DNA from: Crossaster papposus
Taxonomy: Eukaryota; Echinodermata; Asteroidea; Velatida; Solasteridae
DNA: 64,000 nucleotides
Assembly: GCA_037893245.1 (NCBI GenBank)
Contig: JBAIAA010000777.1
Coordinates: 1-64,000 of the forward strand
Direction: 5' to 3'
The notes below the pieces were generated by a model. The model saw only the letters and a list, made by a program, of their open reading frames with translations. It did not search any database and had not been told where the DNA came from. The position numbers were made by a program, and so were the translations under genes. Below are positions 2,957-46,900 of this stretch, piece after piece. Position 1 is the stretch's first letter, and the number at the start of each line of letters is the position of its first letter.

Positions 2957-5900
2957 ATGGCTGGAGTAGTAGTTTGGGTTGTGCTGCGGATATCGGCATT
3001 GGCAGGTGGCTTCAATTGTTCATAACGCACCAAATTCCGCTTTTAAATTATAGTGATTGAGTCAATTAATGTTTGTTCAGGAATTGAACGCTGTGTACGT
3101 TTTAAAATATACTGGACCTATTTTCATAACATACCAACACCGCCTCGGGTCATTAGTCCTGGCTCATGAGCCGTTTTTTGCATAAATTTTAGACTCTATA
3201 CAATACGGACCCTTTAGTATATATTGCGCATGCTTTATTAGTGATGATCATAATTTTAGGCAAGGAATGAACCCCTCGTTAAAAATATGTGATAGCATTG
3301 CAGCAATGGCAGTTTTTTAATTGTTATCATCGTTTTTATTTTGTTTAATGGCCAATAATGCTTGTTACCACCTAATTAATCCGGTAACAAACATATTGGC
3401 GGCCATTTTGAGAAAAACAACGACAACACCCCCAAATTAGTTACCACCGCTCATTCTGCAATGCTATCACACATTTTCCAGCTCTAGGTGTGCATACCTT
3501 GCCAAAAATCGTTATGAGAATTACTCTTCTCGGTCATTCGATAACGGTGGCATAATTGTTAATATAATTTTATAAATATATTTCTTTGCATTTTTACGCA
3601 AGTGCTGGCAACATGTCATCAAATATGTTTCATTGGTTCGGAGTACAACCCACAGTCTGGTACCCCACCCCGTTGGTTCCTACCGTACAAAGATCCGTGC
3701 GAATGCACCGCTGTGCGTCTGGGCGGGATGCGCATCCCTGCTTCGTTATACCAGCAAGAGGCGCCCTACTACCTGGACGAGCTTTTCCTCAGCGAGGACT
3801 CCGACGACATTCAAGCTTACTTCAACTGTACCCCTGCGACCACGGCAAGCCTGGCGACCACGGCAAGCCCGGCGACCACGGCAAGCCCGGCGACCCCGGC
3901 GACCAAGGCGAGCCCGGCGACCACGGCGAGCCCGGCGACCACGGCGATCCCGGCGACCACGGCGAGCCCGGCGACCACGGCGAGCCCGGCGACCACGGCG
4001 AGCCCGACAACCACGGCGAGCCCGGCGACCACGGCGAGCCCGGCGACCAAGGCGAGCCCGGCGACCACGGCGAGCCCGGCGACCACGGCGATCCCGGCGA
4101 CCACGGCGAGCCCGGCAAGCCCGGCGACCCCGGCGACCACGGCGAGCCCGGCGACCACGGCGAGCCCGGCGACCACGGCGAGCTCGGAGACCACGGCGAT
4201 CCCGGCGACCACGGCGAGTCAGGCGATCAGTAAGATGTTATCTAATACAATTTAATAAAAAAAAACTACTATTCTTTTGTTGGACAAACTACAACATTAT
4301 GACGTTTCAGGCTCGAGTACATGTTGTCATGATACTCACGCGTTCCGTTGCATGCGCAGATCTAGCTTTGAGCATGGGGTAGGGTAGGGTAGGGTGTGGT
4401 GGGGAGTAGGGTGGAGTGGGAGAGGGGGGAGGGGAGACGGGGTACCGAAGACACCCTCTATTAGGAGAGTTCTGGACATCCCCCGACAGTTTTGAAATCT
4501 GCAATGCTTTATCAGCCTATGGCACTTTGATAATATAACAATTTAGGAGCCAATTTTTAAGACCGTTGTGGTGAGGTGAGAGTGGGGTGGGGGGGGGGGG
4601 GGGGGACGAATTTACATTTATACACCGATATGGTTTTATTTTCTCTCTTGACAGCAGCAGCTGTGTGTCCGAGTCCAGAGGCTCTTGGAATGGAGAGTAA
4701 CGCAATCACCGACGATCAGATCAGTGCGTCCAGTAGTTCGAGCTGGGGTCTTGCCTGGAAGGGACGACTCAACCTTGGCGGTGTTTGGGCACCAAGCAGG
4801 TATGTATCAAAGGGAACTGTAGTTAACCGTCGCTTATTAACACCCATCACTAAACGGAGTCGCCAATGATGTACGCACACAATTCCGAGATTTTAGACCC
4901 CCGTACTGCCTAAGCATGGCAAACGCGTACACCCACATTTCTGTTTTACTTTTCAGACTACCCTATTTTAGTATTATTTTATTGATGTAGTATAGGTTGT
5001 CCCAGCTATTTATATAAAAAAAAAATCATTCAAATTTTCCATCTCTGGCACATTAAATTTCGTCTGAAAAAAAATAGCAAATGAAATTATTTTCTTTTTC
5101 ACGGAGGAAAGTTAAACTAGCACTGACAGTAAACCTAGAAAAACCAACTACCGGTAACATTAATATAAAGTGTATTGAAACTTGAAAAATCAAAAGTCTT
5201 GAAGAGGTTTTAGTAGTTTAATCGTTCTAATTTTTTCACAATTCCTCTCTTGATCAACGCGGTTTTTTGCGGAGCGTGTTTACGTCATTGTTCTTATCTC
5301 CCTTAACTCTTGATGCACAGTAACGAGAATTCCTGGATCCAGGTGAACCTGATAGAAAGTACAGTGGTGTCTGGTGTCATCACACAAGGCGCGTGGTACA
5401 ATGACTACCCTAGATGGGTAAAGAAGTACAAGGTGTCCTATCAGACAGATGCCACAACTGCACTTACACACGTGACTAATGCAAACGGAAACGTCGAGGT
5501 AACGTTCTTTTTATTTTGCTGCCTTGACCCGCAACATTTTGCCTTTTATTGTTATCAGAACAGTTCCCGCATTTATCAAGTTTTACCATTGGATAATAAA
5601 CTACCAAGAATATTACTTTAAATTTACTTTAAAGTAAACAAAAGAAATTGGCAAGGCGGGACTCGAACCTGCTGCGACGGAATACCGAACCGGCGCTCTA
5701 CCAACTTAGCTATTTTGCCCTATGTTTGCGGTCTCCCGAATTGTAAGTATCTTTGTTTGAGGTGCTAGTCGGAAGTCAGTAACACCAGAATGCCGTGCGT
5801 AGCACCTTCGAACCATTCGGGAGGCTGCCAACAAAATTCGTCTTATATCAATCAATTTCAAAATTTATGCTAACTAAATTAGTCTAGTGTGTGAGTGAGT

Positions 5901-6650
5901 CAAGCACACATCAGACTAATTCAGTTAACATTAAGTTTGAAATTGATTTGTTTCAAACAATTTGATCTCTGAATGCTGCCCTTCTGCAACAGCTTAGATA
6001 AATTCGATCTAGAATGACCAAAAATTGAAATTGAACTTTTGAATTTTATTCAAATTCACGAACTATCACATTCCATTTCGTCCAAGGACAAATTCAACAC
6101 GCTTTTAATTCACCAAATCCATTTAGTAATTTACCATTGAATTAGGTCACTCCAAAGTTAGGTCACTCCATCTAAAAAATGGCTTCAGATTATTGCTCAT
6201 TACAGATCAAATTTGTTTAAGCTGTTGCTTAGACGATTTTGATTTGTAATGACGAATATTTTCGGCATGGTGTCAACAAAGGGTGACCAAACGTTGACAT
6301 TGATTGATAAATGACTGCATTGGTTTTGTTAAAGCGTGTGATTTGTTTTTCTGGGACGAAATGTGAAATTTGGTGAATTTGAATCTAAAATGTTTTAAAA
6401 TAGCGGGGAAAACCTATAATTTTGGGGAATTACCTCCCCTCTTCCAAGATTGTCCCGATAATAAAAAAAATAATAAAACGTATAATCTTTGCTTTTGTTG
6501 CAGGAGTTCAATGGTAACACTGATGCCATCACTGCTGTCATTAACATGTTTGATGAAATCGTGCTCGCGACTGTAGTGCGTATTGAGCCTACTGATTGGC
6601 ATAATTATGTTCGTCTGCAATTCGAGTTGCTTGGATGTCGCCCTACTTAA
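2957..6650 (+). CDS. Secreted mucin-like protein with C-terminal F5/8 type C (discoidin) domain
   Basis: Exons: 2957-3005, 3603-4229, 4655-4799, 5321-5498, 6504-6650. Every junction is GT-AG, the phases agree, and the total of 1146 nt encodes 381 aa. Residues 1-20 form a hydrophobic signal peptide (MAGVVVWVVLRISALA, then VLATC). Residues ~20-95 hold a Cys-containing segment (CHQIC, DPCECTAVRLGG) and an acidic patch (DELFLSEDSDDIQ). Residues ~95-225 are Thr/Ala/Ser/Pro repeats, a likely O-glycosylated stalk. The rest is one F5/8C domain: VCPSPEALGMES and ITDDQISASS, then SWIQVNLIESTVVSGVITQG, FNGNTD, and LLGCRPT at the stop. The first and last Cys are the usual domain disulfide. Such domains bind carbohydrate or phospholipid outside the cell. 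An adhesive or recognition role is inferred. The exon-2 repeat also reads as collagen in another frame, but only the mucin frame fits the splice phases. Confidence 0.88.
3281..3479. mobile_element. Small MITE in intron 1 of the F5/8C gene
   Basis: Ends AAAATATGTGATAGCATTGC and the inverse of GCAATGCTATCACACATTTT flank about 150 bp of non-coding AT-rich sequence. Foldback geometry and size fit a MITE; target duplication is not clear. Confidence 0.65.
3836..4219 (+). repeat. Codon-periodic tandem repeat inside exon 2
   Basis: About 380 bp built from variants of the 9-bp unit GGCGACCAC and GGCGAGCCC. The unit length is a multiple of three and the array contains no stop in any of the six frames. 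In the gene's frame it reads ATTASPATTASP; in a second forward frame GDHGEPGDHGEP, a perfect Gly-X-Y; in the third it is Arg-rich. Its GC content is far above the flanks, which suggests recent expansion. Confidence 0.95.
4374..4440 (+). repeat. G-rich tract in intron 2
   Basis: GGGTAGGGTAGGGTAGGGTG followed by further GGG runs gives many four-run combinations compatible with G-quadruplex formation on the sense strand. A second pure G run sits at about 4589-4605 in the same intron, 50 bp before the exon-3 acceptor. Confidence 0.7.
5649..5720 (-). repeat. tRNA-derived repeat, copy 1 (degenerate)
   Basis: Read on the minus strand it begins GGGCAAAATAGCT, has GTTGGTAGAGCG (A-box region) and GGTTCGAGTCC (B box), and ends CTTGCCA. 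The anticodon arm is spoiled. The flank AAAGTAAACAAAGAAATTGG is shared with the copies at 26384 and 53160, so this is a repeat unit rather than an isolated tRNA gene. It lies in intron 4 of the F5/8C gene. Confidence 0.7.
5846..5948. repeat. Foldback repeat in intron 4 of the F5/8C gene
   Basis: Two imperfect arms of about 45 bp (CAATTTCAAAATTTATGCTA and its inverted partner) surround a short loop. Probably the end-to-end remnant of a MITE. Confidence 0.6.
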
Positions 6651-9487: not shown

Positions 9488-9533
9488 ATGAACGGAACAA
9501 TAACTTGGATTCTGATGACATCAGCAATGACGG
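9488..9533 (+). pseudogene. Orphan signal-peptide exon, paralogue of F5/8C gene exon 1
   Basis: ATG at 9488 opens MNGTITWILMTSAMT followed by a G|GTACGT donor in phase 1. Length, hydrophobicity, phase and donor position match exon 1 at 2957-3005 (MAGVVVWVVLRISALA, also phase 1), and the upstream bases are similar. I find no partner exons (no Cys domain, repeat or F5/8C exon) between here and the oppositely oriented hydrolase gene at 12935. It is probably the remnant of a tandem gene duplication. It could still be an active first exon of a gene whose other exons I fail to recognise. Confidence 0.55.
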
Positions 9534-11619: not shown

Positions 11620-11980
11620 TCTTTCCAGCTAAGAATAGAACAATCCAGCTGTACACATGTGCTATAGAAAATGTTTGGGACGTACCACTGTCTGCAGGAA
11701 GGCCAGCATCAAAACTTCCCCCTGCCTCGAATGAAATGATCCAGCTGTATAATTGACCTGTAGGGAATGTTTGGGACGTGCCACAGTCTGCGGGAAGGCA
11801 AGCATCAAAACTCCCCTCCCCCTACTATAAGAATGAAACGATCCAGTGGTACACTTGTACTACAGAAATTGTTTGGGACATATCACTGTCTCCAGAAAGA
11901 CCAGCATCAAACCTCCCCCTGCAGAGAATGGAATAATCCAGTTGTGCAAGCGTACTAAAGGGAACTTTTCAGGGCTGATA
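11620..11980 (+). repeat. Tandem ~95-bp minisatellite, four units
   Basis: Each unit runs AATGAAACGATCCAGCTGTA, TTTGGGACGTACCACTG, AGGAAGGCCAGCATCAAAAC and a C-rich end. The same unit appears once at 12898-12986 and three times inverted at 14638-14912, inside and beside the alpha/beta hydrolase gene. Confidence 0.85.
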
Positions 11981-12986: not shown

Positions 12987-15900
12987 TTGACGACTTGCTC
13001 TGGGTAGACATAGTGGACCATGTGTGTCCCTTTCTCAAACTGTACAGCCCTCTTCAGAGTGCCGGCTAGGGGTCAAAATAAGAAAATAAAAGACAAATTT
13101 CAATACCATCAGATCAGAGTAACAATAAGCCAGTTCAGTATTTCAAACTGCGCATGTGCACGAAATAATCCGCAGCAGAATCCGTCAATGAGAACTGGCT
13201 CTCAATAGACTTGGACTTTTTTATGCACCGGTGTTGACAGCTGAATGCATCAAAGTGCACCAGACTTTTTAGCCTGTTGCACTGTACGTGCTGCGTCTGG
13301 CAGGGTTAGAATTAAGCAGGACTTGTACTTGCAGGTGTGGATCAAATTATTAAAACTTGTCTGACCTTTGAACTTCTCCATGGTAACACCCTCAGCGTCG
13401 TACTTGACGGTGTCTTCCCGACTCATCCCCAGACGCTGAATGGTATCTTCCAGGACGGGCATTTCCACAAACCTGTCGTTGTGGCTGAAGACGCAGAGCG
13501 CCGGGAGGTTCAACTTCACCAACTGCTCCACGTTGGTGGCAAACTGTACGTAATCAAGTAAAAAAAATTGCAACAGTCAATCACAAACATATTGAGTTAT
13601 ATACAAAACGTCAGCTTTCATTTGGTATATAATAGAGCTCCATAGCCCCATCCCGTTCTGGGGATATGAAAATTTTACATATTGATTACTTCCTTGGAGT
13701 TTACAATACACAAGTAAGAAAACAGGATTTGAAATTAGTTGGCTCTGTTGTAGAACAACAGAATGATGTACACAAAATGTTAGTTTTTTTGCACTTTATT
13801 CATCAAAATCAACATTTCTGTAAATGAAACCCGAAACTGCAGATATTAAAGATGTCATTCCTGACCCAAGAAAAATAAAATCACATTTCGATTTTTTTTT
13901 TTATCGTCTCTACAATCAGCGGGCTATTACATATTAATGCATGTGACTTAATGCCTTTTTTTTTGGAGTCGGTCACCAATAATCTATTAACCCTACTATT
14001 AATCCAAAAGAATCAATATAATTTTGCACACACCCTATGGAGTTTATACTCTGCGCGAAGGAGAACACAACCGATCAACAATAACGAAGCAAAATAATGA
14101 GAAGGTCTCCACAAGAAATTTAGTATTGTTTAGAACTGAGAATTTAGGTGACCTTGGGGATGACATTAAAAACCTCAAATCCATCTTTTTCTGGAAATTG
14201 CAGCAAACGCAAACGTCGTTTTTACTTTTAACCAGGCAGGCAGTTGGTCGGTCGGTCAGTGCGAGAGACAGGTGCAAAAGTTCAAGGCACTAGTCTGGCA
14301 CCCCGGGACCACACACCAAAACCCCTTACCTCTTTGAATTGAAGCTGGGAGCCTTCATACCAGGAGAGGACCTCAGCGTCTCTGGTCAGCCCCTTCAGAC
14401 CGGCCGCTGAGATGATGTGGGAGACAAGACGCTTGACCACTGAGCCGATGACCGGCAGCTTGATGGTGAAGTAGATCAACTGGCCAAAGATGAAGTACAG
14501 CCAGTATGGACTGAACAACCTGGAAATGTGTTCAAGATTCAGTCAATTTCTTGCCTCAAATCTACAAATATATTGTAATGAACCTGGTCAATTTCCCCAT
14601 TGTGGTATATTTGAAATGTTGTCAATACAAAGAGATGATGTCCTTCCTACAAACAGTGGTATGTTCCAAAATGTCCCTATAGTGCGCATGTACAGCTAGC
14701 TCATTCCATTCTCAGTAGGGGGTGTTTTGATGCTGGCCTTTCTACAGCTAGTGGTACGTCCCAAAAGTTCCCTATATTACACGTGTACAGCTGGCTCGTT
14801 CCATTCTCAGTTGGGGGTGTTTTGATGTTGGCCTTCCTACAAATAGTGGTACAATTACCCCAAAGTTCCCTATAGTACTAGTGTACAGCTGGATCATTCC
14901 ATTCTCAGTAAGGCTTTAAATCTGCATATACCCAGTATAAATAAACGACTACCCTTACTTGTGTGGACGGGAACCGGCTGATGACAGCAGACATATTGAC
15001 TTGATAGCGCCCTCTAGGGATGTGTGGGCTGCCAAAAAAAAAAGAAAATATATACATATAGTGGAAAGAGCATAACGCAAACAAGTTTTACAAAACGTAT
15101 TTCCATTGCAGTCTCAAAAATAAACAAAAAACAAAAACCTACAGAATTATTATTAAATGCCTTACTTGACTGAGTGAATAACAGTCTCAAGCATCTTGAG
15201 AAATCACAGCACTTTTGATGCAGTGGTTTTCAAGAAAGGTGACATTTTTTGTATGATTTTCCAACAATGGTCGGCTGACCATCATTGGGAAAACTCGACT
15301 ATTTTTAAATGCTGCCCTCCCCCCTCCAATGTATTACTTGTTTAAGTGCAAGCCAGATAGTCTGGTTCCTTGAGAACTATATTAGTTTTCATCTATAATG
15401 GAGTCAGGGAATCTCCGCACTCGTTTAAATCTGAACCACATTTTTTGTTTTTTGCCACAAGTCCAGTTTTGGTATTTTGATAATTTGTGAAGAAAAAAAA
15501 GTTAATAGAAAACAAACTTGGAACCCAACAGAAAAACAAACTGATTATTTTTCTTTTCTCCAGGGCGCATCAGGCTCACCTTTAAATACCGATCTTGGAC
15601 AGCAGCCCTCTGATGACCTCAGCTTTGTGTTCCGTCGTGTGGTTGTAAACACCATCGGGGTCCAGGGCTGTCAATAGGGACTTTTCGATTTGCACGTTTA
15701 CTAGTAGACTGCGACGTATGCGGTCACAAGTAGACTGCGACGTATGCGGCACGCTAAATGTTGTACCTTACCTTTTCGATTTCTACGACTACGACTACGC
15801 TCACTCAGTGACGTCATGCCTTATGTTTGGCGCGCGCTTTGCACACTACGTCGTCACAGTTTTCCAACGACGGCAAAACAAGGTTGAACGCGTTCGAGAA

Positions 15901-46386: not shown

Positions 46387-46448
46387 CTTAAAACTTGCCA
46401 GTGATTTCCTAAGCAGTGACTGAGGAACGTTGCCCGGTTTCTGATTGG
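46387..46448 (-). promoter_or_regulatory. Putative core promoter of the C1q gene
   Basis: On the minus strand a CCAAT box (46448-46444) lies about 50 bp upstream of a weak TATA-like GTTTTAAG (46394-46387), which is about 30 bp upstream of a pyrimidine-rich CATTCCTCACAAC initiator candidate. Confidence 0.45.
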
Positions 46449-46900
46449 CCCCTAGTGCGCTGTCAATTACACACCACTGACTCGTTTGATACTCATGAAC
46501 GGGAGTTATGTTAATGTGGTTGCAGTCACCGACACTGTGAAATGAACACATCTTATTGGTGGACATTTTATAGACGTCGATGACACGTTCAATTGGCCCC
46601 TAGTGCGCTGTCAATCACGCACCACTGACTCGTTTAAAAGTTATGAACGAAAGTTATGTAAATGCAACTTTTAGTCACCGACACTGTGAATGAACACATC
46701 TTATTGGTAGACGTTTTATAGACGTCGATGACATGTTCAAACGCGTAGCCCCTAGTGCGCTGTCAATCACGCATCACTGACTCGTTTAATATTCATGGCG
46801 GGAGTTATGTGTTAATGTACTTGCAGTCACCGACACTGTGAAATGAACACATCTTATTGATGGACCTTTTATAGACGTTCATGACACGTTCAAACGCGTG
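46443..46900 (-). repeat. Three ~150-bp tandem units upstream of the C1q gene
   Basis: Units begin at about 46443, 46592 and 46746. Each carries CCCCTAGTGCGCTGTCAAT, CACTGACTCGTTT, GTCACCGACACTGTGAA, AACACATCTTATTG and TTTTATAGACGT. Units 1 and 2 contain ATTGG words that are CCAAT boxes in the gene's direction; unit 3 has lost one. Confidence 0.88.

Follow-up and report, generated by a model that had tools for sequence, protein, structure and literature searches.

The question raised by this locus is whether a tandem repeat that reads as a mucin-like stalk in one frame and as collagen in the neighboring frame encodes one protein, the other, or both. The repeat lies in the second exon of a gene at positions 2957-6650 of the window, the 64,000-nucleotide stretch of Crossaster papposus DNA that was analyzed. 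Very probably, this gene is a member of a large, recently duplicated family in which the stalk is read in the mucin frame and the collagen frame is a by-product. The sequence does carry both readings, but biologically this is nothing out of the ordinary.

To establish the frame of the gene, its five forward-strand exons (2957-3005, 3603-4229, 4655-4799, 5321-5498, and 6504-6650) were joined in silico, which gives 1146 bases and one open frame of 381 amino acids with a terminal stop. In the frame of the joined exons, exon 1 (2957-3005) encodes a hydrophobic start, MAGVVVWVVLRISALA, that is signal-peptide-like by eye, and it leaves one base (phase 1). Exon 1 ends G/GT, with the slash at the exon border, in 11 of the 12 copies of the gene in which it was located, and the exon 2 acceptor is AG/TG in 51 of 53 copies. 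Exon 2 opens with a cysteine-containing N-terminal domain (N-domain, 3603-3829, 75 codons from 3605), for which no Pfam family and no PDB entry was matched at E ≤ 1. It continues as a tandem 9/18-bp array found with TRF (3830-4229), translated as a TTASPA mucin-like stalk, and ends at a phase 1 donor with GT at 4230-4231. Exons 3 (4655-4799), 4 (5321-5498), and 5 (6504-6650) encode the start, middle, and end of an F5/8C (discoidin) domain. The most variable block of this domain lies in exon 4, and exon 5 also holds the stop codon, which is TAA in 12 of the 13 copies where this exon was located; no membrane segment follows in-frame. The 155-aa head matches Pfam PF00754 over residues 21-142 (63.7 bits, cut-off 28.2).

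Only the TTASPA reading yields the 381-aa open frame. Thus, as the earlier note had claimed, the exon phases place the array in the Thr/Ala/Ser/Pro frame, and it is this frame, not Gly-X-Y, that joins the other exons of the gene. The same note was also right that all three candidate acceptors of exon 3 (4655, 4658, and 4661) keep the phase. Rescue of the collagen frame by an alternative exon 3 acceptor is ruled out, as the three sites are 3 bases apart. The product predicted from this splicing is probably secreted, with a signal-like start, a conserved N-domain, a length-variable stalk, and a C-terminal F5/8C binding head. Over 50 copies, Ser, Thr, Pro, and Ala make up a median of 94% of stalk residues, and Ser and Thr together a median of 47%. 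The translated frame therefore carries the Ser/Thr/Pro-rich tandem repeats of a mucin-type stalk, and this Ser/Thr/Pro/Ala stalk would probably be O-glycosylated.

No further N-domain or F5/8C exon matches were found elsewhere in the 64-kb window, and a tRNA scan of positions 5000-6500 found none. A second exon-1-like start (MNGTITWILMTSAM...) is present at 9488, with upstream sequence that is similar by eye. Other repeats in the window include two arrays of ~95-bp units, at 11630-11949 and 14634-14910, that by eye resemble reverse-complement relatives of each other, and three 148-bp units in tandem at 46448-46899.

The array of exon 2 is delimited by TRF to 3832-4226, with a period of 18 bp (two 9-mers), 22.4 copies, and a GC content of 79%. 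Across 3603-4229, each of the three forward frames has 0 stops, and the reverse strand of 3830-4226 carries a single stop, in one of its three frames. The earlier description of the array exon as stop-free in every forward frame is therefore correct. It had further described an unbroken Gly-X-Y frame; such a frame does exist one base over, but it is not perfect, as Gly opens 42 of 43 triplets and the codon at 4006-4008 is Asp. Against the Pfam Collagen family, this frame scores 79.3 bits (cut-off 27.2, E = 1.8e-22), and a homology search would call it collagen, as was foreseen. A collagen call on exon 2 would be an annotation error, and the Gly-X-Y frame is an annotation trap. Both properties can be traced to the repeat unit. 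When the unit length is a multiple of three, a frame stays open unless the unit itself carries a stop in that frame, and a GG dinucleotide anywhere in a 9-bp unit places Gly at each third codon in one frame. In the array, GG stands at fixed places in the unit, and another frame therefore reads Gly-X-Y. Among simulated random 9-bp units at 78% GC, a fraction of 0.90 is open in all three forward frames, and 0.70 of those have a Gly-X-Y frame; at 50% GC, the corresponding fractions are 0.62 and 0.43. The open frames and the Gly-X-Y reading of the array are no more than chance for a GC-rich 9-bp unit.

To compare the window gene with its relatives, a 77-aa stretch of the N-domain was searched against the 1.02-Gb genome (1841 contigs). 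At least 150 matches were obtained (150 scored out of 448 candidates), all with E ≤ 2.5e-35, some of which may be alleles on separate contigs. In the same genome, stop-free COX1 matches were observed around positions 2872001 and 5208663 of contig C8 (>5 Mb), beside the mitochondrial COX1 on C1841; C8 may be a bacterial symbiont or a contaminant. The 401-base COX1 fragment of C1841 is best translated with the echinoderm and flatworm mitochondrial code, its four AAA codons being at positions where Asn is expected, and most likely comes from an echinoderm. From the N-domain matches, 58 distinct exon-2 copies were compared, no two of which are identical, although three pairs are identical over the first 400 bases. 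The mucin frame is kept in 50 of these copies, seven are frame-shifted (L019, L022, L030, L039, L051, L065, and L069), and one (L033) is truncated, ending before the array. A donor was located in 53 of these 58 copies. In the 47 unshifted ones, exon 2 is 474-2076 bases long and always 0 mod 3, and in the six shifted ones its length is 1 or 2 mod 3. Moreover, 43 of the 47 unshifted lengths are equal mod 9. Length changes of the array thus mostly involve whole 9-bp units, so that no help from selection is needed to keep the frame, and a minisatellite that grows and shrinks mostly in such steps would retain its frame largely automatically. The seven shifted copies of 58 imply either that frame loss is not rare or that the assembly contains errors.

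The three frames differ in how well they are maintained across the family. In the arrays of 50 copies, for three of which no donor marked the end of the array, which was instead placed manually or by means of the open frame, stops occur in 28 copies in the collagen frame (68 stops), in 23 copies in the third frame (100 stops), and in no copy in the mucin frame, where their absence is partly built in because the main codons (ACC, ACG, GCG, AGC, and CCG) are never one change from a stop. Gly occupies at least 90% of triplets in 26 of the 50 arrays (median 0.91), so Gly-X-Y is not maintained over the copies. In the N-domain (54 copies), the mucin frame has a pN/pS of 0.55 and 0 stops. In comparison, the collagen frame has a pN/pS of 1.70 and stops in 27 of the 54 copies, and the third frame has a pN/pS of 0.78 and stops in 19 of 54. 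Based on these sequence comparisons, the mucin frame is judged to be the coding frame of exon 2, and the collagen frame an arithmetic by-product that is not maintained.

Inside the array, an excess of changes at third positions is a weak test of frame, since 9-bp phase slips dominate, and a comparison of CpG changes was used instead. An 18-bp unit contains four CpG sites, and at all of them a G-to-A change is silent for the mucin peptide and alters the collagen frame, whereas C to T does the reverse. The array contains 137 distinct contexts with changes silent in the mucin frame versus 68 silent in the collagen frame. The two flanking introns have the opposite bias, with 14 CpA sites versus 20 TpG (Fisher P = 0.0065 for array versus introns, a rough value because the contexts are partly common by descent). 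In the N-domain, counted as sequences rather than events, CpA outnumbers TpG by 25 to 8 for C at the second codon position, and for C at the third position TpG outnumbers CpA by 31 to 20. The contrasts in the array and the N-domain both favor the mucin reading. Among distinct units of the array, mucin codon positions 1, 2, and 3 show 168, 277, and 182 deviations, with part of the excess arising from 9-bp phase slips. The most variable of these, position 2, corresponds to the third codon position of the collagen reading, and the position count alone would therefore not favor mucin. Purifying selection on the mucin peptide inside the array is weak. Synonymous constraint was considered as a further sign of dual coding. 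Among 12 copies, differences at 4-fold sites are 0.083 in exon 2 (N-domain) versus 0.090, 0.113, and 0.126 in exons 3-5, and overall pS is 0.091 versus 0.186, 0.151, and 0.174. Intron differences are larger, at 0.18 (36 copies) and 0.34 (30 copies). The silent sites of exon 2 are somewhat slower, for which gene conversion, poor intron alignment, and constraint are all candidate causes.

A weakly constrained array peptide, together with eight visibly broken copies among the 58, is what would be seen if the locus were one pseudogene among many, with neither frame translated. This is unlikely, as the reading frame of the window copy runs uninterrupted through five exons whose splice sites are conserved, and the N-domain pN/pS given above and a dN/dS of 0.62 in the F5/8C domain outside its variable blocks both argue against it.

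It is still less probable that the gene is dual coding, with leaky scanning to a second AUG producing a Gly-X-Y protein in addition to the mucin-like one. The candidate start, at 3613, lies 59 bases past the main AUG, has A at -3, and opens a 220-aa spliced ORF (3613-4229 on the forward strand, with further AUGs at 3625 and 3703) that runs through the whole array and ends in exon 3. Across the family, an AUG-led collagen-frame ORF spans at least 90% of the array in 17 of 47 copies; in contrast, 27 of the 47 have no such ORF into the array, and the arrangement is not conserved. The main AUG has a context of A at -3 and G at +4, and the collagen-frame pN/pS of the N-domain likewise stands against a second product. 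The prolines of collagen are hydroxylated in the ER, a compartment that a collagen made from the 220-aa ORF would miss, since by eye this ORF lacks an evident signal sequence. A published precedent is available in MUC1-ARF, which is reported to be an alternative-frame product of the human MUC1 repeat, detected by antibody and with a start of its own (PMC5074479). For the window gene, the 220-aa ORF is judged to be a by-product and not a gene.

The frame-shifted copies bear on the suggestion that a one-base shift would turn the stalk into a collagen stem. Such copies exist: L039 and L065 are shifted within the N-domain and carry the whole array in the Gly-X-Y frame. In L039, which has 98% DNA identity to the window exon, an extra base in the N-domain is followed by Gly-X-Y up to a stop at the donor. 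Of the others, L019, L022, and L069 pass from the mucin frame to an RPRRAR frame, L051 is wholly RPRRAR, and L030 is in the collagen and third frames after several shifts, with its donor not found. Such shifts into collagen, however, leave the F5/8C head out of frame. One could suppose that some of these copies were truly switched by single-base indels and work as variants with a mucin stalk, a collagen-like stem (L039 and L065), or an Arg-rich tail (L051), at least one switched form being secreted and functional. With seven of 58 copies switched, and with exons 1, 3, 4, and 5 of L039 and exons 3-5 of L048 (the L019 locus) still recognizable, this has some support, but it is highly improbable: in six of the seven switched copies (all but L030), exon 3 is entered in a frame other than that of F5/8C. 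Losing a single base within a GC-rich repeat is, moreover, a typical error of sequencing or assembly. The frame-shifted copies are therefore best regarded as presumptive broken genes or assembly errors. Finally, that the gene is a true collagen, with the array as its stem and the mucin reading accidental, can practically be dismissed despite the strong Pfam Collagen score, as the collagen frame connects to the frame of neither the N-domain nor the F5/8C domain, the exon phases are against it, and stops interrupt it in 28 of 50 arrays.

The preferred reading, a mucin-frame stalk with the collagen frame as by-product, leaves the origin of the stalk to be explained. Of 15 extra copies that were expected to have no long array, 14 are arrayless and one (L093) has a short, decayed array. 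Ten of the 14 arrayless exons continue with CTP and then AVQST, EVQST, or AVEST, and L084 and L090-L092 end otherwise. In eight of these ten (8 of the 14 arrayless), ACAGGTTAG comes next, a phase 1 donor by eye. In a tree of 70 N-domain sequences, 56 array and 14 arrayless copies are split by one branch with support of 99/99. Because the N-domain of the arrayless copies is likewise read in the mucin frame, growth of the stalk in that frame is most likely. Most simply, the array had a single origin, within an exon of already fixed frame. The stalk would then be a minisatellite that expanded within exon 2 of an arrayless ancestor; because the tree is rooted at its midpoint, gain of the array, rather than loss, is what we infer. 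An ancestral collagen is ruled out by the arrayless copies, with their N-domain in the mucin frame.

These results do not uphold the two proposals of the earlier note on how one reading could have come from the other. Alternative splicing that makes both proteins finds no support in the window copy: when its collagen frame is spliced to exon 3, a stop is reached once 15 codons lying at least partly in that exon have been read, so that no F5/8C head is encoded. The array stops give it no support either. An ancestral switch from collagen is opposed by these same stops in 28 of 50 arrays and by the arrayless copies, and mucin was most likely first.

In the F5/8C head, variability is higher than in the N-domain. 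The mean entropy is 0.35 bits in the N-domain (53 sequences) versus 0.92, 0.84, and 0.66 bits in head exons 3, 4, and 5 (26, 16, and 12 sequences; the head paralogues observed are L040-L058). This variability is concentrated in blocks around SWGLAWKG, GGV, QGAWYNDYPR, and HNYV, and the SWGLAWKG and QGAWYNDYPR blocks contain or adjoin length changes. Coagulation factor VIII and neuropilin are F5/8C (discoidin) proteins, and the head matches the factor VIII light chain with E = 6.7e-36. When the head is aligned to the second factor VIII domain, blocks 1 and 2 are at insertions of factor VIII and block 3 is opposite TQGVKSLLTSMY; the factor VIII segments that face the variable blocks are its membrane-binding spikes. 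Unlike factor VIII and neuropilin, the window protein has just one F5/8C domain, which follows a mucin-like stalk and an N-domain that is unmatched in Pfam and the PDB and has its at least 150 genomic matches. The dN/dS is 1.72 in the variable blocks, a value inflated to an unmeasured extent because the blocks were picked after their variability was seen, compared with 0.62 for the remainder of the head and 0.53 for the N-domain. For whole exons, in the 12 copies with all exons, it is 0.41 in exon 2 (N-domain) and 0.93, 1.14, and 0.84 in exons 3-5. Relative to the window protein, L039 is 96% identical in exon 3 and 98% in exon 5, and only 81% in exon 4, a mosaic pattern which suggests that its head has undergone gene conversion or recombination. 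Among comparable systems, F-type lectins and oyster bindin are diversified recognition lectins of marine invertebrates. The pattern of variability would suit a family of secreted recognition proteins, in which the variable head may have a recognition role, and relaxed constraint would also fit. Such a family may serve immunity or gamete recognition.

Several known systems share features with this gene. The head fold of galectin-3 differs from the F5/8C head of the window protein. The galectin-3/GALIG gene resembles the window gene in combining a lectin, a repeat stalk, and overlapping alternative frames, and differs in that the collagen-like repeats of galectin-3 lie in its own frame (PMC13362432). 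In human MUC1, too, exon 2 holds a coding VNTR with a second open frame. In contrast, its unit is 60 bp rather than 9/18 bp, the MUC1-ARF repeat as reported is wholly different in sequence, and MUC1-ARF has been seen as protein, whereas the window collagen frame is known from sequence alone and is not conserved over copies (PMC5074479). Frameshifts in or before the VNTR are reported to give the disease form MUC1-fs (PMC10267510). The antifreeze glycoprotein genes of codfish are reported to have imperfect 9-nt coding repeats that encode Thr-Ala/Pro-Ala tripeptides and undergo slippage, and some copies are pseudogenes with a frameshift upstream of the repeat (PMC8622921). The one-base switch of L039 resembles both MUC1-fs (PMC10267510) and these frame-shifted pseudogenes (PMC8622921). 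A difference is that the gadid antifreeze gene is described as derived from non-coding DNA, whereas the window repeat is a linker inside an existing gene (PMC8622921). In a literature search that covered mainly papers readable without subscription, no paper was found that joins a mucin tandem repeat with a collagen-like alternative frame, and an overlapping frame with a collagen-like repeat was matched only by galectin-3. Within the same scope, no title or abstract opening on echinoderm or invertebrate discoidin expansions describes the window family, which is not claimed to be unreported; the words "discoidin" and "mucin" are absent from PMC13228809.

The locus provides a worked case of how a coding repeat with a length that is a multiple of three passes for collagen in a profile search even though the real frame is a different one, with 58 exon copies against which to test it. 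The family deserves more attention than the frame coincidence, and the fast-changing binding head is its more interesting part. With its conserved base, length-variable stalk, and binding head that varies mainly in a few blocks, this large family looks as one would expect for recognition proteins that act in immunity or fertilization.
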